Source of the DNA: a virus
Virus record (IMG/VR): IMGVR_UViG_3300032116_000866
Coordinates: 1 to 31,777 of that record
DNA length: 31,777 nt
Direction: 5' to 3' (one strand)
Notes under the pieces: model-generated
Seen by the model: only the letters and a program-made list of their open reading frames with translations
The model's database searches: none
Told to the model about the DNA's origin: nothing
Shown here: positions 16,915-31,356 of the stretch, piece after piece
How the letters are laid out: every line of letters starts with the position of its first letter
Position numbering within the stretch: position 1 is the stretch's first letter
Made by a program: the position numbers and the translations under genes

Positions 16915-19900
16915 GACAGATAGAGGTAATTAATCAGGAGACCATCATCGATGTTACTGCTGAAACGTCAAACGTAGAAATCCTAGTAAGAGACTACGAC
17001 TCAGAATTAGTTGAAAGGTTTGCTTTAGAGGCTCAAGAAGCTGCCATTGACGCTGAGGAATCAGCTGACATCGCAACTGCTCAGGCTTCTATTGCAACCG
17101 CTCAAGCGACTATTGCAACAACTCAAGCAGGTATTGCCACCACGCAAGCAGGTATTGCTACTACTCAAGCTGGCATTGCTACTACCAAAGCTAACGAGGC
17201 AAGTGCTTCGGCTGCTAGTGCCTTGGCTAGTGAGCAGGCTGCGGATGCGGACAGAATCGCTGCACAAGCTGCTGCAAGTACTGCGACAACACAAGCGGGG
17301 ATTGCAACTACACAGGCAGGCATAGCGACTACTAAGGCAGGAGAGGCTTCGGCTAGTGCTGCTGCTGCTTTGGCTTCTGAGACTGATGCTGAGACTGCTG
17401 CTAGTACGGCTACGACTCAGGCTGGCATTGCTACTACGCAGGCAGGAATCGCAACAACACAGGCTGGAATAGCCACTACTCAGGCGGGTAATGCTTTGAC
17501 AAGTGCAAACAACGCTGCTGCTTCGGCTGCTGCTGCTGCACAGGTTGGAACATCTACTCCTTTAACTGGATTTAGCACAGGTGCGAATAGCACTATACTT
17601 GCTACTGACACAATCTTGCAGGGCTTTAACAAGACGCAAGGACAGATTAACGCTAGGGTATCAGGGACAGGAACATCAGGTCAAGTAGCGTTTTGGAGTG
17701 GTACGGGTACGCAGACAGGAGATAACGGCTTTTTTAGACAAAGTGCGACGGGAAGTATTGGTATAGGTACAAACACACCTAGAAAGTCAACTTTTTTTAA
17801 TACAACTTTAACTATTGAATCAACTGGCATTACAGGTACTGAATTAGTCGGCACACAGACTGGTTTAACAGGCACTGTTTCTGCTATTACATTTATAAAT
17901 AATTCAAGTACTGATACAACATTCCAAAAAAGACTTGCTCAAATAACTGTTGTAAATAGCGGTTCGGTTAATAGCGGAGATTTATCTCTAGGTGTATTTG
18001 ACGCAGGTACTTTTAGACAACCTATTTTTATTAAGGCAAACGGCAACGTTCTCATCAACACCACCACCGACGCAGGCTTTCGCTTAGATGTCAACGGCAC
18101 TGCAAGGGTCAGTGGTGATTTTAAACTTGGTGATGGTAGTCAAAGAAATATAATAGGTCCTTTAAATAATAGTTTAGGTATATATTCTTCTCCAAATAGT
18201 ACAACAGAAGGAATATTATTTTCAACAGATGATGGTGCAACTGTTGAAATGTTTTTGCAAGATGGTGGAAATTTAGGAATTGGAACTATTACCCCAACTT
18301 TTAAGCTAGATGTTAACGGAACGGCTAGGGTGCAGGGGGTGCTTACAGCTACTGCTGATGCGGTGGTGAATGGGGTGAATATCGGAGTTGGTGGAGGTGC
18401 AATTGGGTCTAATACAAGAGTAGGTTTAAATGCTTTAAACGGAAATACCACAGGTGCAAGTAATACAGCTATTGGATGGCGGTCATTACAAACTAATTCC
18501 ACAGGAGCTTCAAATGTCGCAATAGGAACTCAGTCTCTACAAAATAGTACAACAGCATCTCAAAACACAGCTATTGGCACTGGTTCACTACAAGAAACTA
18601 CAATAGGTGGTAGCAACACGGCAATTGGTAATTTATCATTACTTAATAATACAACAGGAGGAAACAATTCTGCTATTGGAAATATTGCAGGTCGCTTTAT
18701 TGCAGATGGCACAACTAATTTAACAATTGCAAACAACTCTGTTTTTATAGGGGCGCAAACTAGAGCGGCAGCAGACAATCAAACCAATCAAATTGTAATA
18801 GGATTTCTAGCCATAGGTCTTGGCAGCAACACCACAGTAATCGGCAATTCCTCTACTACCTTCGGGCGGTGGTTTGGAAACCTACTTGTAGGCTCATCAA
18901 CCAACTCAGGTCAGATGTTGCAAGTTACAGGCACATCCTTGCTAAACGGCTTATCAACTATCCAAGGGACTACTGCTTCCGACTCAGGGCAACTAGGTAC
19001 TGAACTGCTAACCACAGGCACAGGAGATGCATCTTGGACAGGAACATCATTTGCGACAGGCTACACCCATGTCGCAGGGTCTACCACTACATTGACAAGC
19101 ACACTTGCAGGGGTGGTGAATACCTTCTATCAGATTACCTATACAGTAACAGGCAGAACGGCAGGCTCGTTTGTCATCGACTTTGGAGGCCTTACATCTT
19201 CTGCATTAACTGCGACAGGGGCAGTAGGTCCAAGAGCAACCACAACAGGAACGCTAGTAATAACTCCTACTTCTGACTTTAACGGAACGATTGTTTTGTC
19301 GATTCGAGTTATTACTCCTTCGAGTGCATCAGTTACATTTAACAATAGTGCAGGAAGCGCAACTAATCATATTAGAATTAGTAACTCTCTGACAAATACT
19401 ATTATTGGTAGAGATTCAGGTCAAAGAAATACCACAGGTACAAACAACTCTTTTTATGGTCAAGCGGCAGGTGACTCAAACACAACAGGAGTAGGTAACT
19501 CTTTTTTTGGTAGAGTTTCAGGATTAAGTAATACAACAGGAGCAGGAAACTCTTTCTTTGGAAATGGTTCTGGACAATCAAATACAACGGCAGGAAATAA
19601 TTCTTTCTTTGGACAAAGTTCTGGACAATTAAATACAATAGGTAGTTCTAATTCATTCTTTGGAAGTAATTCAGGTGCAGCAAACACAACAGGGGCTAGT
19701 AATTCTTTCTTTGGAGTAAACGCTGGATTTTCTAATACAACGGCAAGTTCAAACTCTTTCTTTGGTGAAAATGCAGGATTGGCTAACACAACAGGTGCTA
19801 ACAATATAGCGTTTGGTCGTAACTCAGGCAGATACGCAGGGGCAGGTACAACTGCAATGACATCTGTTAACAACTCAATTTACTTAGGTTTCCAAACTAG

Positions 19901-20571: not shown

Positions 20572-20596
20572 AAAGCGCTAGAAATAGCGCTTTTTT
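20572..20596 (+). terminator. Rho-independent terminator closing the tail/fibre operon
   Basis: AAAGCGCTA at 20572-20580 pairs with TAGCGCTTT at 20585-20593 around a GAAA tetraloop, with a T-run to 20596. Confidence 0.88.
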
Positions 20597-20622
20597 ATTT
20601 GCTTTAAAATGCCTTATTTTTG
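20592..20622 (+). promoter_or_regulatory. Promoter of the lysis region
   Basis: TATTTTTG at 20615-20622 is a perfect TAnnTTTG -7 box. At 19 bp upstream the -33 position is TTTT (inside the terminator T-run). The first lysis-region ATG is 22 bases beyond the -7 box. The adjacent CC before the box matches the other late promoters. Confidence 0.5.
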
Positions 20623-24525: not shown

Positions 24526-24831
24526 TTAATAAGGCAAATTATCACCATAAGCAAGCCAAACGTCGCTGCAATCTTTTTCAAGTTTTGCTTGCTTGTAAAA
24601 CGTTTTAAAATCAATGTACTTTTCGCCTTTAACATATTGACTGCTCCTAAATTTAGATTTCCCTTTTTTGACAAGTAAGCCATCGGCAAACAGAATATAA
24701 AATTCGTTCTCAGCAACTGCTTGGTTAAACTCAAGATATTGATGCCACCAGTCAGCTGGCTTGCGATTCTCGTCTAGCACCTTGGTTGCGCTTAGGTAGC
24801 CAAACGGGTTAATGATTTGTGCCTCTTCCAT
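24526..24831 (-). CDS. Leftward early protein of unknown function
   Basis: A 101-aa protein from the ATG at 24831; the frame has a TTG at 24837. MEEAQIINPFGYLSATKVLDENRKPADWWHQYLEFNQAVAENEFYILFADGLLVKKGKSKFR shows a mixed alpha/beta fold with several Trp, no membrane helix and no recognised motif. It is the first gene of the leftward cluster and lies next to the divergent operator region, a position often taken by regulators or host-takeover proteins. Another frame (24492-24734) overlaps it but lacks support. Confidence 0.62.
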   Translation of the reverse strand: MEEAQIINPFGYLSATKVLDENRKPADWWHQYLEFNQAVAENEFYILFADGLLVKKGKSKFRSSQYVKGEKYIDFKTFYKQAKLEKDCSDVWLAYGDNLPY

Positions 24832-24893
24832 ACGCAAGTTAAAAGCATAAAAAACGACACGGAAAAAAAATCTTCACTTTTGTTAAAAAAAAA

Positions 24894-24935
24894 GTTAGAA
24901 ATATTTTTTATTCTAACTTATAAGTTAGATATTTG
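24894..24935 (+). promoter_or_regulatory. Early promoter with palindromic operator
   Basis: GATATTTG at 24928-24935 matches the -7 box in seven of eight bases; TTTT lies at the -33 position 19 bp upstream. Between the boxes sits a perfect 16-bp palindrome, CTAACTTATAAGTTAG (24913-24928), and the left arm TTCTAAC (24911-24917) also pairs with GTTAGAA at 24894-24900, giving three GTTAG-type half-sites. A repressor bound here would block the promoter. The transcript leader (to 24977) is CAA-rich and unstructured. The rest of the 146-base divergent gap is A/T runs with no convincing leftward promoter. Confidence 0.6.
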
Positions 24936-24977
24936 TCTCAGTAATAACAACAACAACAACCAAAACACCAAAATACT

Positions 24978-25235
24978 ATGCAACTAATTACTATTAACGG
25001 CTGGGGAACTGAAATTTTTAACGAGAAAGAAATTGAGACAACCTACGAAAGCCTACAAATTCAAGTAAAAAGCAAAGTTTATTCAATTACCATTGCTAGA
25101 GGTCGCAACAACTATTATTTTATCAGATTAGAAAACGGCAACAGAATGGGAGGCAAAAATTTTGCAACTCTAGATTTGGCAATTGATTCTTACAAGTCAA
25201 TTGAAATGAAAGCAGCTTTAATGCAAATAAGATAA
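24978..25235 (+). CDS. First early protein, unknown function
   Basis: An 85-aa protein with the start MQLITINGWGTEIFNEKEIETTYESLQIQVKSKVYSITIARGRNNYYFIRLENGNRMGGKNFATLDLAIDSYKS: strands followed by a C-terminal helix. No known motif. It is the first gene after the operator-bearing promoter and is followed by a GAAA-capped hairpin, so it is probably expressed immediately after infection. Small beta-alpha proteins at this place often target host machinery; that is inference. Confidence 0.68.
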   Translation: MQLITINGWGTEIFNEKEIETTYESLQIQVKSKVYSITIARGRNNYYFIRLENGNRMGGKNFATLDLAIDSYKSIEMKAALMQIR

Positions 25236-25242
25236 ATAAACT

Positions 25243-25258
25243 GCCCACGAAAGTGGGC
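25243..25258 (+). other. Stable intergenic hairpin (GAAA tetraloop) with conserved leader
   Basis: GCCCAC (25243-25248) pairs with GTGGGC (25253-25258) around GAAA. There is no T-run, so it is not a classical terminator. The next 19 bases, ATAACTTTCTACACCTATG, are identical to those after the hairpin at 27607-27620. Confidence 0.6.
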
Positions 25259-25274
25259 ATAACTTTCTACACCT

Positions 25275-25550
25275 ATGGGAAAACTATTTAACGATTCTGA
25301 AATGTACCTCGACCAAGAGGTGCTATTCTATTACGAAGGCGAGGAGTATTGCTGGACTGGTCATTACGAGGTCAAGCAATGCGGCGAGGAGTCCGACTGG
25401 GATTATTGCGGCGATTCCGAGGTTGAGGTTGAGATTGAGACAACCAAAGCCATCACCAAGTTTAACGAAGAAACAAACGGCTGGGACGAGGTGACAATTA
25501 CCAACTCCCTCATTTACGAATTAGTATTATACATTGAACGAGACCTTTAA
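25275..25550 (+). CDS. Very acidic small early protein
   Basis: A 91-aa protein with 24 Asp/Glu and 5 Lys/Arg, net charge about -19. Sequence includes EGEEYCWTGHYEVKQCGEES, then DSEVEVEIETTKAI. It has several Cys and Trp, so it should fold rather than be disordered. Strong negative charge in a small early phage protein is a known feature of DNA mimics that block restriction or repair enzymes, but no such family was recognised here. It begins with the recurrent ACACCTATG initiation signal. Confidence 0.68.
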   Translation: MGKLFNDSEMYLDQEVLFYYEGEEYCWTGHYEVKQCGEESDWDYCGDSEVEVEIETTKAITKFNEETNGWDEVTITNSLIYELVLYIERDL

Positions 25551-25564
25551 ACAAACAAACACCT

Positions 25565-26116
25565 ATGGAAAAATCACAGAGTATCCAAAACCTAACACAA
25601 GGACTTGCCAAGTTTCATGCAATGGTTGGGAAGATTAGCAAAGATGCTAAGAACCCATTTTTTAAATCCAATTACGCCAGCTTACCTCACATTATTACAG
25701 AGGTCAGCGAGCCGCTAGAAAAGGCTGGTTTAATTCTTAGCCAGTTTCCAAACGGCGACGGCTTGACAACAATGCTAATTCACGCAGAAAGTGGTGAGTA
25801 CATTTCAGCAACCTACACTTTGCAAGTGGTTAGACAGAACGACCCACAAGCGCAAGGCTCTGCAATTAGTTACGCAAGACGATATGCCATTACAAGCATT
25901 TTAAACCTAGCTATTAGCGATGACGATGGAGAGGCTGCAACTAGACCAGTGCGCCAAGTGCCAGCGGTTGTAAAGACCAAGCCAACCGACGAGCAATTTG
26001 CCTACATCGTTCGCTATTTAAACGGAACCGATGCCCAGCGCAAGCAAGCAAAAGATGCCTTGACTAAATACGAATTAACACAAGACCAAAAGGACATCTT
26101 AGACGGATTACTATGA
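25565..26116 (+). CDS. ERF-family single-strand annealing recombinase
   Basis: A 183-aa recombinase that anneals complementary single strands during phage recombination. The N-terminal domain has KFHAMVGKISKDAKNPFFKSNYASLPHIITEVSEPLEKAGLIL and the signature GSAISYARRYAITSILNLAISDDDGEAA at about 98-125 (the ERF S-Y-x-x-RY motif and acidic end). The C-terminal 50 residues are a charged helical extension. The following gene is Gp157-like, a pairing common in phage recombination modules. Confident. Confidence 0.9.
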   Translation: MEKSQSIQNLTQGLAKFHAMVGKISKDAKNPFFKSNYASLPHIITEVSEPLEKAGLILSQFPNGDGLTTMLIHAESGEYISATYTLQVVRQNDPQAQGSAISYARRYAITSILNLAISDDDGEAATRPVRQVPAVVKTKPTDEQFAYIVRYLNGTDAQRKQAKDALTKYELTQDQKDILDGLL

Positions 26117-26595
26117 ACCTATATGAAATCACAAGGGAGGCGCTTGAGTTAGCCTTCCTATTGGAAACAGAAGATTTAACACCTGAGTTGGAAGCAATGC
26201 TGGTAATAAACCAAGAGCAACTCCAAGTCAAGGCTGGCAACTATGCCAAGGTCATCGCAAACATCCAAAGCGATTCCGATGCAATCGACCAAGAGATTAA
26301 AAGACTCAAGGCAATGAAGGACAGTAAGGAGCGAGCCATTACAAGGCTTAAGGATGCACTTAGAGAGGCAATGCTAGTAAGTGCCATTGACAAAATTGAA
26401 AGTCCTTTATTCAAGCTTAGTTTGCGCCGTAGCGAAGCGGTGGAGGTTGACATTGTAGAGGCTTTACCTAGCCAGTTTGTAAACATTAAAAACGTGGTAA
26501 CTGCTGACAAGGTAGCAATTAAGGAAGCCATTAAAAGAGGCGAGAATATTACTGGCGCTAGAATTATCGAAAACTTTAGCCTACAAATCAAATGA
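26113..26595 (+). CDS. Siphovirus Gp157-like protein
   Basis: A 160-aa protein: N-terminal helical pair with MNLYEITREALELAFLLE, a central long coiled coil (KAGNYAKVIANIQSDSDAIDQEIKRLKAMKDSKERAITRLKDALREAML, about 40-95) and a beta-rich end with LFKLSLRRSEAVEVDIVEALPSQFV. This is the layout of Gp157 proteins, linked in streptococcal phages to phage-resistance phenotypes and next to recombination genes in many others. Overlaps the ERF stop by four bases and the next gene by four bases. The family call is good; biochemical role is unknown. Confidence 0.84.
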   Translation: MNLYEITREALELAFLLETEDLTPELEAMLVINQEQLQVKAGNYAKVIANIQSDSDAIDQEIKRLKAMKDSKERAITRLKDALREAMLVSAIDKIESPLFKLSLRRSEAVEVDIVEALPSQFVNIKNVVTADKVAIKEAIKRGENITGARIIENFSLQIK

Positions 26596-26753
26596 AAGAT
26601 AACCCAATATTTTTGGCAACGCTTATCCTATTCTCAGGCATAAGCATAACCTTACTGATTTTAGCAGGACTTAAATACATCCCAATAATTACGATTGTCT
26701 TGATTTTAGCCGCTGCTTGGTACGTCATTTATTACCTATTTAAAAACAACTAA
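26592..26753 (+). CDS. 53-aa two-span membrane protein
   Basis: MKDNPIFLATLILFSGISIT, a Lys-containing turn (GLKYIP) and a second hydrophobic stretch ending YYLFKNN give two membrane helices of about 20 residues. ATGA overlap with the Gp157-like stop supports translation. Unknown function; small early membrane proteins can act in superinfection exclusion. Confidence 0.6.
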   Translation: MKDNPIFLATLILFSGISITLLILAGLKYIPIITIVLILAAAWYVIYYLFKNN

Positions 26754-26754
26754 A

Positions 26755-26892
26755 ATGAGCAACTACACCTATTTAGGCAAATTCATTAAACGCCCAGCAG
26801 ACCTAGCGCCAAGAGGTGTTAAGTCTACCTATCAAACTGAAAAGCTACCATTTAACGAAACCTTTGAAAGATTATGGAAACTCAAGAAATAA
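26755..26892 (+). CDS. 45-aa basic protein of unknown function
   Basis: A short frame (MSNYTYLGKFIKRPADLAPR, then GVKSTYQTEKLPFNETFERLWKLKK) that begins one base after the previous stop and whose TAA overlaps an ATG at 26892 of the next gene. It is basic with no membrane helix. Real-gene spacing is the main support; no family was recognised. Confidence 0.55.
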   Translation: MSNYTYLGKFIKRPADLAPRGVKSTYQTEKLPFNETFERLWKLKK

Positions 26893-27206
26893 TGGACGAA
26901 GTAAAGCGACTATACATCGAAGGATTTACTCGCAAAAGGATAGCTGCAAAGCTTGGAGTAGATAAGGAAAAGGTAGGCTACCTACTCTATACCAAAATGA
27001 AGCTTCATGAAATCCACCCACGTAAGCTAATAAACGAAAACATCTTTAACATTCTGACCGACCACCAAATCAGCCGAGTGCTGACGCTGGCGACATACGG
27101 TTATAACTGCAAAGAAATAGCAGAAGACCAAAAGCTAGAATATCGTAAGGTAAAAAAGTTGCTGGATGTAGCACAATCCAAAAATATGATTGAGAAAAAA
27201 ATTTAA
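26874..27206 (+). CDS. Helix-turn-helix protein
   Basis: A 110-aa protein with two HTH-like units: IEGFTRKRIAAKLGVDKEKVGYLLY (about 14-38) and YGYNCKEIAEDQKLEYRKVKKLL (about 75-97), each with the A-x-x-L-G/x-V-x turn of DNA-binding helices. Two starts are possible: ATG at 26874, overlapping the previous gene by 19 bases, or ATG at 26892, sharing one base with its stop (TAATG); the latter gives 104 aa. A likely regulator or DNA-structure protein of the early region; the promoter at 27224 with an operator lies just after it. Confidence 0.68.
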   Translation: METQEIMDEVKRLYIEGFTRKRIAAKLGVDKEKVGYLLYTKMKLHEIHPRKLINENIFNILTDHQISRVLTLATYGYNCKEIAEDQKLEYRKVKKLLDVAQSKNMIEKKI

Positions 27207-27223
27207 TTTATTTTTAAAAATAG

Positions 27224-27254
27224 TTTGGAATCTAATTTATTTGTTAGATATTTG
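27224..27254 (+). promoter_or_regulatory. Second early promoter with operator-like repeat
   Basis: TTTG at 27224-27227, 19 bp, GATATTTG at 27247-27254. The spacer holds CTAATTTATTTGTTAG (27232-27247), an imperfect version of the palindrome at 24913-24928, and the bases after the box (ACTCA against TCTCA) also agree. The leader to the ATG at 27322 is about 60 bases. Confidence 0.65.
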
Positions 27255-27321
27255 ACTCAACAAACAAGCACAATCCTGCGACTGAAGGAAATCAGCACGA
27301 GATGGAAGTTCTCTTTTTGTT

Positions 27322-27597
27322 ATGGCGAATCAGCCGTTTTTTCCTGTTAGTGTTTCAAAGTCAGAAATGATTTTGGCTTTAAAAGGTCAGAAGGTAAAAC
27401 TTTCTGTTTCTTTTATTGCTGATTTTAGCAATGGTGTTGTTAAGGTTCTTAACAGGACTAAATGGGTGGACTCTAGACTTGTTAAAGAGTCTGACCTAAT
27501 GGAATCTGTAATGTCTAAAGACAATTGCAGACTATATTTCCTTGATTGGTCAAAAAATCCAACTTTTGGAACTTGGGATAAAAACTATCCTAGTTAA
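27322..27597 (+). CDS. Small early protein of unknown function
   Basis: A 91-aa protein, MANQPFFPVSVSKSEMILALKG then QKVKLSVSFIADFSNGVVKVLNRTKWVDSRLVKESDL, ending DWSKNPTFGTWDKNYPS. It looks like a small beta-rich domain. No motif was recognised. It is the first gene behind the second operator-bearing promoter and is followed at once by a UUCG-capped hairpin, so it parallels the gene at 24978. Its T-rich codon use seems somewhat different from neighbours. Confidence 0.66.
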   Translation: MANQPFFPVSVSKSEMILALKGQKVKLSVSFIADFSNGVVKVLNRTKWVDSRLVKESDLMESVMSKDNCRLYFLDWSKNPTFGTWDKNYPS

Positions 27598-27758: not shown

Positions 27759-28046
27759 ATGAAATTTTACACAATTAAATCAACCAAAGTAACGGAGTTT
27801 CAAATGGACGTCCCTAAGTATTTTAAAATAATGGACTTTCATTACATGATTTTAAACGACGATGACGTCCTAGTTGTAAACCCTAATTACTTACCTGATT
27901 TATTCGTTTATGCCTACATCAAAATTGATTTGATTAAATGGCACGCAGATTTTTGGGCGAAAAATGAAATTGAGCCTTTGAATGAATACGAATTTCGTCA
28001 AGTATACACAGATGCAACTTTAGAAATAGAAAAATTAATGAACTAA
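27759..28046 (+). CDS. Small early protein of unknown function
   Basis: A 95-aa acidic protein, MKFYTIKSTKVTEFQMDVPK then YFKIMDFHYMILNDDDVLVVNPNYLPDLFVYAYIKIDLIKWHADFW, rich in aromatic residues with a C-terminal helix. No motif. It starts with ACACCTATG, and its stop shares one base with the next ATG (TAATG). Confidence 0.66.
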   Translation: MKFYTIKSTKVTEFQMDVPKYFKIMDFHYMILNDDDVLVVNPNYLPDLFVYAYIKIDLIKWHADFWAKNEIEPLNEYEFRQVYTDATLEIEKLMN

Positions 28047-28261
28047 TGACAAGCACAGACTCACAAAACGCACTAATCAAGGGATGGCTATTAAATGGCT
28101 ATTCCCTTACCCAGCTAGAAGCTTTAAACCAGTTTGGATGCTTTAGACTAGCGGCAAGGATTGCAGACCTTAGAGACAAAGGTTTAAACGTTGTAACCGA
28201 CATGGTTACCCTGGAGAATGGTAAAAGGGTTGCACGCTACTTTTTAAAGCGTGGAGTTTAA
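28046..28261 (+). CDS. Winged helix-turn-helix domain protein (HTH_39-like)
   Basis: A 71-aa protein consisting of one DNA-binding domain: NALIKGWLLNGYSLTQLEALNQFGCFRLAARIADLRDKGLNVVTDMVTLENGKRVARYFL. The pattern of sL-T-x-x-(E/Q)A-x-x-x-(F/Y)-G-x-x-R-L-(A/S)-x-RI-x-(D/E)-L-(R/K)-x-x-G is that of the small phage HTH_39 family, followed by a beta wing. Commonly encoded in replication regions. It overlaps the GTG of the next gene by 11 bases. Confidence 0.82.
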   Translation: MTSTDSQNALIKGWLLNGYSLTQLEALNQFGCFRLAARIADLRDKGLNVVTDMVTLENGKRVARYFLKRGV

Positions 28262-28610: not shown

Positions 28611-28972
28611 CACGAGAGGAAATCATTACAGAACTCAACCACCGAGCAACTCAAAAGTACTTGGTATACTTGGCGCTCCAAGAAATTATGCTAGATTACT
28701 ACGAAGACGTGACAATGCTAAAGGCATTTGACGTGGACCTAAGAACAAAGCACAAAAACATGATTAACGCTTTAAAACGTAAGTCAACCGAGGCGTTTAG
28801 GTTTTTGGAAAATTACGACGGTGGAGAGGCAACAATTAAGCAGTTTCACGAGTTTGTGACTTTGTTTGAACGGCTCCACAATTCGATTGACCAAGGTGGC
28901 AATCTATTTCACGACTGTTTATCAGCTATTGAACAAATTTTAAACGACAATGAAAAGACGCAGAGTAACTGA
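28607..28972 (+). CDS. Helical early protein of unknown function
   Basis: A 121-aa all-helical protein, MTREEIITELNHRATQKYLV then LQEIMLDYYEDVTMLKAFDVDLRTKHKNMINALKRKSTEAFRFLENYD, ending HDCLSAIEQILNDNEKTQSN. No motif was recognised. It overlaps the upstream nuclease-like gene by four bases and the next HTH gene by 23. Confidence 0.66.
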   Translation: MTREEIITELNHRATQKYLVYLALQEIMLDYYEDVTMLKAFDVDLRTKHKNMINALKRKSTEAFRFLENYDGGEATIKQFHEFVTLFERLHNSIDQGGNLFHDCLSAIEQILNDNEKTQSN

Positions 28973-29099
28973 CGAGGAAAAGCAGTTAATATTTGAAGGA
29001 TGGCAAGACCGCAAGCCAATTAAAATAATTGCAATTGAACTTGGCAGATGTTATGGCACAATTTATACCGAACTAAAACGTAGGGATTTAGTTGGATAA
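28950..29099 (+). CDS. 49-aa helix-turn-helix protein
   Basis: MKRRRVTDEEKQLIFEGWQD then RKPIKIIAIELGRCYGTIYTELKRRDLVG: a single HTH of the type found in small transposase-like or phage regulators (recognition helix R-x-x-G-T-I-Y-x-E-L-K-R). The basic N-terminus and 49-aa length suggest a minimal DNA-binding protein. It overlaps the previous gene by 23 bases. Its end lies just upstream of the promoter and structured RNA at 29112-29215, which it might control (inference). Confidence 0.66.
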   Translation: MKRRRVTDEEKQLIFEGWQDRKPIKIIAIELGRCYGTIYTELKRRDLVG

Positions 29100-29119: not shown

Positions 29120-29123
29120 TGTA

Positions 29124-29215
29124 AATAATGATAGATTTAAGAGGTCGGAGCCTTGAATCTTTCATAGGTGATAACCACCAAGGCCCATCGACTCCGACAC
29201 GATAGGGCCTTTTTT
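29124..29215 (+). ncRNA. Structured leader RNA / putative attenuator or small RNA
   Basis: About 92 nt from the expected transcript start to the terminator T-run. Segment A, GTCGGAG (29144-29150), is exactly complementary to CTCCGAC (29192-29198), which forms the loop of the terminator hairpin (29182-29209). CCTT (29151-29154) can pair with AAGG (29180-29183), and GGTG/CACC (29167-29179) forms an inner hairpin. Either A pairs in an extended stem that competes with the terminator, or A pairs with the loop as a pseudoknot. A 25-codon frame, MIDLRGRSLESFIGDNHQGP plus STPTR (29128-29205), covers the same bases and may be a leader peptide. No known RNA family was recognised. Confidence 0.5.
29182..29215 (+). 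terminator. Terminator directly before the DUF6291-type gene
   Basis: GGCCC-ATCG (29182-29190) pairs with CGAT-A-GGGCC (29200-29209) with one bulged A, a 9-nt loop, then six T. The next ATG is only five bases after the T-run, so the downstream gene needs readthrough from this promoter or a distal upstream transcript. Confidence 0.75.
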
Positions 29216-29220
29216 ATTTT

Positions 29221-29925
29221 ATGGAAGGGAAAAAATCATTTGTACTTTATACGGACCAAAGAGAAGTCTTTGAAGAGCTTGACCACGAGCAAGCTGGAAA
29301 GTTAATTAAGCACATTTTTAGCTATGTTAACGATGAAAATCCTGAAACGGACGACAAGTTTGTGCGTCTTGCATTCCTACCAATTAAGACTCAGCTTAAA
29401 AGGGACCTAAAGATTTGGGATGAAAAAAAACATTTAAGGTCTGAGGCTGGTAAAAAGGGAGGTCTAGCAAAAGCTAGCAATGCTAGAAATGACCTAGCAA
29501 ACCCTAGCAATGCTACAAATTCTCTAGCAAACGTAGCTGTTAATGTAAATGGTAATGTTAATGTAAATGATAATGTTAATGTAAATGGTAATGTAAACAA
29601 TCAAAGAAGCGCTGGCGCACTTTTATCTTTGGAGGAGGTCTTTATTGATTTTAAAAAAGAAAAGCCTTTAAAGCGACCATATTTTGAAAGGATGGCGCAC
29701 GTACATTCAGCAGATAACGAAACCATTGAAAAGCTATTTGAAAAATGGGCAACAATAAAAGAAGGCGAAAGCATGACGATTGCAAAGGCTGAAAATAGTT
29801 TTAACCTTTACCTAGCTAACAATTTAAAAACCAGCTACAAGCCACCCGAAAAGTCAAAGACTTACAACGTATTTGACGAACTTTACGAAGACTTACAAAA
29901 ACAAAAACACCTAAACAATGAATGA
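29221..29925 (+). CDS. Replication-region protein (DUF6291-type N-terminus), possible initiator
   Basis: A 234-aa protein. The N-terminal 80 residues (KSFVLYTDQREVFEELDHEQAGKLIKHIFSYVNDENPETDD...FLPIKTQLKRDL) match the DUF6291 pattern of phage replication-region proteins. Residues about 80-128 are a low-complexity Asn-rich linker (LAKASNARNDLANPSNATNS, then NVNGNVNVNDN repeats), whose DNA is a phased repeat array (see 29464-29597). The C-terminal 100 residues are helical and basic (ERMAHVHSADNETIEKLFEKWATIKEGESM). The two-domain layout with repeats between resembles phage initiators of the lambda O kind; that role is inferred. Confidence 0.75.
   Translation: MEGKKSFVLYTDQREVFEELDHEQAGKLIKHIFSYVNDENPETDDKFVRLAFLPIKTQLKRDLKIWDEKKHLRSEAGKKGGLAKASNARNDLANPSNATNSLANVAVNVNGNVNVNDNVNVNGNVNNQRSAGALLSLEEVFIDFKKEKPLKRPYFERMAHVHSADNETIEKLFEKWATIKEGESMTIAKAENSFNLYLANNLKTSYKPPEKSKTYNVFDELYEDLQKQKHLNNE
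29464..29597 (+). repeat. Phased CTAGCAA repeats plus AT-rich 18-bp repeats, candidate origin
   Basis: CTAGCAA occurs at 29464, 29474, 29494, 29504 and 29524, with one-mismatch forms CTAGAAA at 29483 and CTACAAA at 29513. Steps are 10, 9, 11, 10, 9 and 11 bp, so one copy per helical turn. They are followed at once by TAATGTTAATGTAAATGR (29553-29570 and 29571-29588) with partial copies on both sides, about 85% A+T. The order matches iterons plus unwinding element. Confidence 0.5.
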
Positions 29926-30547
29926 GATAATTTTAACGCACCTCCGCAAGATGGAGTTTGTATGCGGACTGAAGCAGTTTAAAGAATACAAAAAAGAAGA
30001 GGCAAGCGAGTTACTTGGATGTCTTAGCAAGTTATTTAGCAGCTACGGCTGGATGACAGAGGCAAGAGTTGACTATATTCTCCATGCTGGTATGCGAGGA
30101 CAATACGGCGATTTTTACCACGTAAACGAGAAGACAGTAAGCGTATGGATTAACCAATATTATGCCCACCACCAAAGCCAAATTGTTCAGGAAGTACAAG
30201 CTTTAAACAACAAAGAAAAAGAACCAAGCAACGAAGAGATTGCGTACTGGATTGAGGTTGGTAAGCAGATATTTAGAGATAATTACCAGTATGCTAAGGA
30301 CACAGGATTTTGCAGAGACATTGCAGAATGGGGCATGAACTGGTTTAATAAGTTCCAAGAAAAAGGAATTTTAAAACCTTGGGAGTTTAATGTGGAGGAG
30401 ATGGAGAATGACGTTAGAAAAGAATTACGCTTGACGGTTAGATATGTAGACGAGGTAAGCGTTGGCGCCAAGACAAAGAATAAAATTTGGAAATTGTTTA
30501 TTTTACAATCTATTAGGGATAATAAAAATTTAGATAAGCTAATATGA
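29918..30547 (+). CDS. Replication-region protein of unknown function
   Basis: A 209-aa helical protein, with EILTHLRKME-like start (MNEIILTHLRKMEFVCGLKQ), YGWMTEARVDYILHAGMRGQYGDFYHVNEKTVSVWINQYYAHH in the middle, and a long charged C-terminal part. No Walker, nuclease or HTH motif is convincing. It overlaps the DUF6291-type gene by eight bases and the methyltransferase ATG by four. In comparable phages this place holds replication accessory or helicase-loading proteins, so that is a possible role. Confidence 0.66.
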   Translation: MNEIILTHLRKMEFVCGLKQFKEYKKEEASELLGCLSKLFSSYGWMTEARVDYILHAGMRGQYGDFYHVNEKTVSVWINQYYAHHQSQIVQEVQALNNKEKEPSNEEIAYWIEVGKQIFRDNYQYAKDTGFCRDIAEWGMNWFNKFQEKGILKPWEFNVEEMENDVRKELRLTVRYVDEVSVGAKTKNKIWKLFILQSIRDNKNLDKLI

Positions 30548-31356
30548 GACACGGCTCTTTGTTTAGCGGAATAGGAGGTTTTGATTTAGCCTCTGAATGG
30601 ATGGGATGGGAAAATGTATTCCATTGCGAATGGAATGAATTTGGACAAAAAGTTTTAAATTATTATTGGCCTAATGCAATAACTTATCATGACATCACAA
30701 AGACAGATTTCACTATTCACAGAGGAGCAATTGACATCATTACAGGTGGATTTCCCTGTCAACCCTATTCATCCGCAGGAAAGCGACTTGGCAAGGAGGA
30801 TGAGAGACACCTCTGGCCTGAGATGCTTAGAGCAATTCGAGAGATTCAGCCGAGCTGGGTTGTGGGCGAAAACGTTCGTGGCCTTACTAATTGGAATGGA
30901 GGGCTGGTATTCGACGAGGTGCAGGCTAATTTGGAAGCTGAAGGCTACGAAGTCACACCGTTTTTACTTTCAGCTGCAAGTGTCGGAGCATTTCACAAAA
31001 GAGATAGGATTTGGTTTATTGCCTACTCCAAACGCAATGGATTGGAATACAGGAGTAAAACCAATAACATACAAGAAAAGGAAACAAAAACATTTGTTAA
31101 AAAAAGTAAATTTACAAATGACTTTAAGGCAGATGGCAGCAGATTTAACGAAAAATGGCCAACCTACCTACAAGCTGAAAACCTCGTTTGTTCAGGAATT
31201 AATGGGGTTTCCAAAAAATTGGACAGAATTACCTTTCCAAAGTGGAGAAAAGAATCAATAAAAGCCTACGGAAACGCAGTAGTTCCACAGGTAGTATACC
31301 AAATATTTAAAGCAATAGAGCAATACAATCAATTAAACAAACAGTTAACATTATGA
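30544..31356 (+). CDS. DNA (cytosine-5) methyltransferase
   Basis: A 270-aa C5 methyltransferase that transfers a methyl group from S-adenosylmethionine to cytosine. Motifs in order: I, FSGIGGFD (7-14); IV, GGFPCQPYS with catalytic Cys72; VI, ENVRG (109-113); VIII, HKRDRIWFIA (151-160); X, AYGNAVVPQVVYQIF (241-255). The target recognition part between VIII and the end motifs is only about 60 residues, so the enzyme is small. There is no partner endonuclease, so it is a solitary phage enzyme likely to protect phage DNA from host restriction. A second frame is open inside the gene (30689-31261). Confidence 0.9.
   Translation: MRHGSLFSGIGGFDLASEWMGWENVFHCEWNEFGQKVLNYYWPNAITYHDITKTDFTIHRGAIDIITGGFPCQPYSSAGKRLGKEDERHLWPEMLRAIREIQPSWVVGENVRGLTNWNGGLVFDEVQANLEAEGYEVTPFLLSAASVGAFHKRDRIWFIAYSKRNGLEYRSKTNNIQEKETKTFVKKSKFTNDFKADGSRFNEKWPTYLQAENLVCSGINGVSKKLDRITFPKWRKESIKAYGNAVVPQVVYQIFKAIEQYNQLNKQLTL
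30689..31261 (+). other. Long overlapping frame inside the methyltransferase gene
   Basis: A 190-codon frame, shifted by +1 against the methyltransferase, begins with ATG (MTSQRQISLFTEEQLTSLQV) and contains LIGMEGWYSTRCRLIWKLKATK, IGFGLLPTPNAMDW and LKTSFVQELMGFPKNWTELPF. The LLPTP-x-A-x-D and MGFP-x-x-WTELPF segments recall motifs in proteins annotated from other phages. It has no separate promoter or clear ribosome site. Translation is not shown; part of the resemblance follows from the conserved main frame. Confidence 0.3.

Follow-up and report, generated by a model that had tools for sequence, protein, structure and literature searches.

A putative operator common to the cores of two predicted early promoters in a virus contig and its relatives

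The window, by which is meant the whole stretch of DNA analysed, is a virus contig with a record length of 31,777 bp. Head, tail and lysis genes precede a promoter, P1, and genes for an ERF annealing protein, a Gp157/Gam-like protein, three HTH proteins and a DNA methyltransferase lie downstream of it. Operon 1, behind P1 (24978..27206, + strand), starts with a small accessory gene followed by the 25275 gene, continues with the ERF annealing protein (25565-26116, +), the Gp157/Gam-like protein (26113-26595, +) and small genes, and ends with a tandem-HTH protein of 110 aa (26874-27206, +), referred to here as HTH 26874. The operon 2 region, behind a second promoter, P2 (27322..31775, +), opens with accessory genes and holds an HTH_39 protein (28046-28261, +), a 49-aa HTH_38 protein (28950-29099, +) and the DNA methyltransferase (30544-31356, +). 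Operon 2 is assumed to form a single transcript up to about 29100 only, since a promoter-like site and a terminator-like RNA come next. From this gene content we infer an early timing for the genes behind P1 and P2. On the other side of P1, and pointing away from it, a small divergent gene (24526-24837, -) carrying the motifs NPFGY...DENRKP...KKGRSKF is strongly conserved in most relatives. It matched no known family, and as a possible repressor it was set aside with an unusable predicted structure (pLDDT 50.7).

P1 (24905..24935, +) reads TTTT-N19-GATATTTG, with the -33 box TTTT at 24905-24908 and the -7 box GATATTTG at 24928-24935, and its boxes are kept in relatives. P2 (27224..27254, +) reads TTTG-N19-GATATTTG, with the corresponding boxes at 27224-27227 and 27247-27254. 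Two promoters with the same -7 box, 19-bp spacing and an inverted repeat had been proposed in the initial annotation, and are found exactly where it placed them. Bacteroidota sigma-A promoters have a TTTG/TTG -33 box and, about 19 bp further on, a -7 box of the form TAnnTTTG (PMC9723704). P1 and P2 resemble this arrangement in the form TTTG/TTG-N19-NAnnTTTG, with a spacing of 19, but depart from it, and from the TTTG and TAnnTTTG boxes of the initial annotation, in the -33 box of P1, which is actually TTTT, and in the first base of both -7 boxes (G for T); they further differ by a conserved 18-bp spacer element that is outside the general consensus. Group II P2 promoters of relatives match TAGATTTG exactly. 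The host phylum is probably Bacteroidota, judging from promoters of the TAnnTTTG type (PMC9723704) and from weak similarity to Flavobacterium phage 11b, the nearest named phage, which shares a 78-bp DNA match with the window. No P1/P2-like site was seen in the 16 kb of phage 11b examined, which gave one unplaced hit of 13.4 bits only, and a host look-up with the ERF protein in genome contigs returned distant ERF relatives only.

Putative operator 1 lies within P1 (24912..24929) and is a perfect 18-bp palindrome, TCTAACTTATAAGTTAGA, the sole one in the window. The inverted repeat core CTAACTTATAAGTTAG (24913-24928) had already been described as perfect, and the outer T/A pair extends this perfection to the full 18 bp. 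Putative operator 2 lies within P2 (27231..27248; TCTAATTTATTTGTTAGA), with the core CTAATTTATTTGTTAG at 27232-27247, and the 18-bp site overlaps the core of both promoters. The pattern TCTAA-N8-TTAGA occurs exactly twice in the window, at 24912 and 27231, with 0.1 copies expected in block shuffles and two or more in 1% of shuffles; when up to three mismatches are allowed, one further weak 16-mer appears, at 18294. Shuffles give a perfect 18-bp palindrome somewhere in the window in 18% of cases, which is not rare, and one inside a shuffled 40-bp P1 core has a probability of 0.00085.

Relatives were gathered by scans with the ERF and HTH 26874 proteins, which yielded loci from over a hundred contigs with a conserved gene order, P1 sitting between the divergent small gene and operon 1 and P2 directly after HTH 26874. 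Removal of duplicates left 86 distinct P1 and 95 distinct P2 regions. With a profile built from the GATATTTG promoters, the 18-bp element was recognised in 82 of the P1 and 93 of the P2 regions; among regions outside training, 27/38 for P1 and 66/69 for P2 reached p<0.05 against shuffles of the same region, in a test where reversed sites were not pre-selected by their core. A held-out profile, whose training left out all 11 genomes scanned with it, scored P2 of the window at 24.5 bits and P1 at 14.8 bits, the one-strand shuffle maximum being 13.1. With this profile, P1 and P2 were the two best hits in nine of the 11 whole genomes (the window, G001, G002, G004, G009, G012, G013, G020 and G025), both scores of G004 and the P2 score of G025 falling below the shuffle maximum; P1 of G007 was not among the five best hits, and P2 of G021 was outranked by a hit at another position. 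A looser pattern had hits in 23 of 26 records, one or two in most of them (reversed control, 0), and some of its three-mismatch hits fall outside P1 and P2. The exact palindrome is nearly private, since the exact pattern TCTAANNNATNNNTTAGATATTTG, sought in all viral contigs, occurred in 9 contigs only, including the near-identical L003 (as L130) and L313 (as L124).

Perfect inverted symmetry is not a conserved feature, both arms being exact in just 4/86 P1 and 18/95 P2 regions. Compared with column-shuffled controls, complementarity showed no excess in the GATATTTG promoters (p=0.13 for P1 and 0.39 for P2) and an excess in P2 of the TAGATTTG class (p=0.0055). Lost symmetry with conserved promoter boxes, which the initial annotation had named as an outcome that would count against it, is seen in part at P1, but the element itself survives. 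What relatives retain, as judged by sequence comparison, is the element and not its perfection. The extra GTTAGAA half-site proposed upstream of P1 can be read at 24894..24900, but across relatives it is limited to 6 of 43 class-1 P1 regions, all from close relatives.

The element overlaps both promoter cores and, throughout the phage clade, hardly occurs outside P1 and P2, which fits the earlier proposal that the two early units form a regulon. It appears fairly probable, though well short of assured, that a single operator has been copied in both early promoter cores and that one phage regulator, most likely HTH 26874, shuts both units off. The two palindromes would be copies of this operator in the cores of P1 and P2, promoters that would transcribe early recombination, regulatory and accessory genes, and both would be bound by a single DNA-binding protein of the phage, most probably the tandem-HTH protein. 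With the -7 box taken as -12 to -5 (PMC9723704), a protein bound there would occupy about -28 to -11 and thereby block RNA polymerase by steric repression; as the regulator accumulated, both early units would be turned off together, with negative autoregulation. Within this mechanism, we infer repression rather than activation, two-fold binding and the identity of the regulator.

Three HTH proteins, at 26874, 28046 and 28950, had been put forward as candidate regulators. HTH 26874 ranks first among the candidates on its position and its conservation: its gene is located between the two sites, ending operon 1 just before P2, and it is present in 59 of 59 relatives with enough flank. Its predicted structure contains two trihelical HTH units (pLDDT 84.5), and all 26 aligned members of its family match a PHROG HTH DNA-binding family; fold searches, tried for a family assignment, returned generic HTH matches only. 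The HTH_39 protein at 28046, present in 57/59 loci with enough flank, is disfavoured because no homologue is found, whether at the expected position or in the rest of the contig, in relative G009 (31.9 kb, holding L028), a contig that may be incomplete and that keeps both sites (held-out profile scores of 23.4 for P1 and 14.0 for P2). HTH 26874 and HTH_38 remain from the original list. A possible, although less probable, reading is that the same operator has another reader, namely the HTH_38 protein at 28950, an undetected phage protein or a host regulator. The HTH_38 protein is likewise present in 59/59 loci with enough flank, and neither Mantel nor partial Mantel tests single out a regulator; yet HTH_38 distances are unrelated to P1 sequence (Mantel r 0.05), and a host protein would leave unexplained why the site keeps to P1 and P2, as judged in phage genomes.

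The conserved spacer could also be a property of the promoters, whether a preferred spacer, DNA shape or an alternative sigma factor, and not an operator at all. Conservation extends over the whole P1 region (mean bits per column of 0.99 in the spacer, 0.87 upstream and 0.97 downstream), and the AT-rich symmetry is weak in the GATATTTG promoters, as such a property would allow. This explanation is nevertheless unlikely in view of how the element moves relative to the boxes. In the GATATTTG promoters, the symmetry axis falls after spacer position 12, and in the TAGATTTG promoters (group II P2) after position 14, with the -33 and -7 boxes still 19 bp apart, a displacement of about 2 bp relative to the -7 box in this one P2 class; the element of group I P2 is shifted upstream by about 9 bp and overlaps the -33 box. 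It also flips, the best match being on the opposite strand in 24 P1 and 10 P2 regions, where reversed sites occupy the same place and axis as the forward sites of close relatives. Moreover, a third conserved promoter (20592-20622, +), which has the -7 box TATTTTTG, stands immediately behind an intrinsic terminator and recurs in G002, G004, G007 and G009, is devoid of the operator element. Because the element slides and flips relative to the boxes and is absent from this third promoter, the comparison supports a module distinct from the promoter boxes and one shared operator, and the element behaves as expected of a roughly two-fold symmetric site bound by a protein. Recruitment of an activator acting from the spacer with MerR-like geometry, suggested by the position of the site and by a -7 box that is off consensus at its first base, is very improbable and less likely than repression, no MerR-type protein having been matched among the early genes tested and the group I P2 site overlapping the -33 box.

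Within a genome, P1 and P2 resemble each other weakly (p=0.02). P2 of the window with its leader (27195-27290) resembles the P1-type promoter of relatives L022-L029, and the nearest relatives by HTH 26874 protein carry a P2 unlike that of the window; promoters may therefore have been exchanged between the P1 and P2 positions, which would explain part of their likeness. A more speculative and rather doubtful extension of the repressor model is that one chain of the tandem-HTH protein occupies the whole pseudo-palindrome, with one HTH on each of two unequal half-sites, and that the P1 and P2 versions of the operator are exchangeable control cassettes. Single-chain binding, if true, would explain how operators can flip about their axis in relatives without loss, and exchangeable cassettes would control the rapidly swapped accessory genes behind P1 and P2.

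The genes directly behind the two promoters are highly exchangeable, homologues of 24978-25235 and 27322-27597 occurring in 3/59 and 1/59 relatives, respectively, and genes further behind are found in nearly all of the 59. Depending on the relative, similar first genes stand behind P1 or behind P2. The promoters proposed to be regulated stand directly ahead of the positions where these phages exchange accessory genes.

A conserved structured RNA (window 29120-29222, +) lies between the HTH_38 gene (28950-29099) and the gene at 29221, is preceded by the promoter-like TATATTTG and is also found in relatives (e.g. L004 6964-7081 and L036 6531-6657). Its fold z-score is -4.7, and it matches no Rfam family at the curated cut-off. 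The RNA contains a hairpin whose loop complements 7-9 nt of the loop in the intrinsic terminator that follows. Six core loops (GTCGGAG, GTGGTAG, GTAGGAG, GTGAGAG, GTCGCAG and GTGGAAG) are all matched by their own complement across 81 distinct regions, a count that is conditional on a search requiring complementarity. The changing sequence pairs speak for real loop-loop pairing, since both sides change together in relatives, and the RNA is possibly an attenuator or a small RNA held by a kissing loop.

What emerges is a concrete predicted operator with two target promoters and a few candidate regulators, conserved among about a hundred uncultivated relatives; the literature searched contained no account of early promoters in such phages or of how their early genes are controlled. 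Three known systems invite comparison. HTH 26874 resembles the CRISPR-repeat-binding protein of PDB 2lvs in having two HTH units in a short chain; 2lvs is its top Foldseek hit (E-value 0.13), with a Z of 7.0 for the alignment of one 51-residue unit, a purely structural likeness within the range common for small helical domains. The KorA/TrfB repressor of IncP-1 plasmids binds the operator GTTTAGCTAAAC (PMC2680271) and, like the regulator proposed here, is a global repressor of several promoters. Its half-site GTTTAG/CTAAAC is seen in TCTAAACTATTGTTTAGA of group II P2, but the half-sites here stand in the opposite order and with a spacer (CTAAAC-N4-GTTTAG); the KorA/TrfB operator itself is not found, the sites here being CTAA-N8-TTAG. 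HTH 26874 matches the KORA profile (PF16509) weakly (E 0.02, 15.5 bits), under the Pfam cut-off of 26.7, and is not assigned a KORA domain.

The third system is the lambda Cro/CI type of control, where phage repressors bind operators overlapping early promoters. The present case is similar in that a palindrome-like site lies in the promoter core and is common to more than one early promoter, and in that the gene of the candidate regulator lies within the controlled region. It differs in having one site per promoter rather than triplets, in the lack of any integrase match among the window proteins scanned and in a candidate regulator that is not of Cro/CI type by profile search. As far as sequence can tell, a conserved site of protein-binding type over several early promoter cores places these sites among phage early-gene operators. 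Operators overlapping phage early promoters are an already known kind, and what is new here is this member, possibly with an unusual tolerance of orientation.
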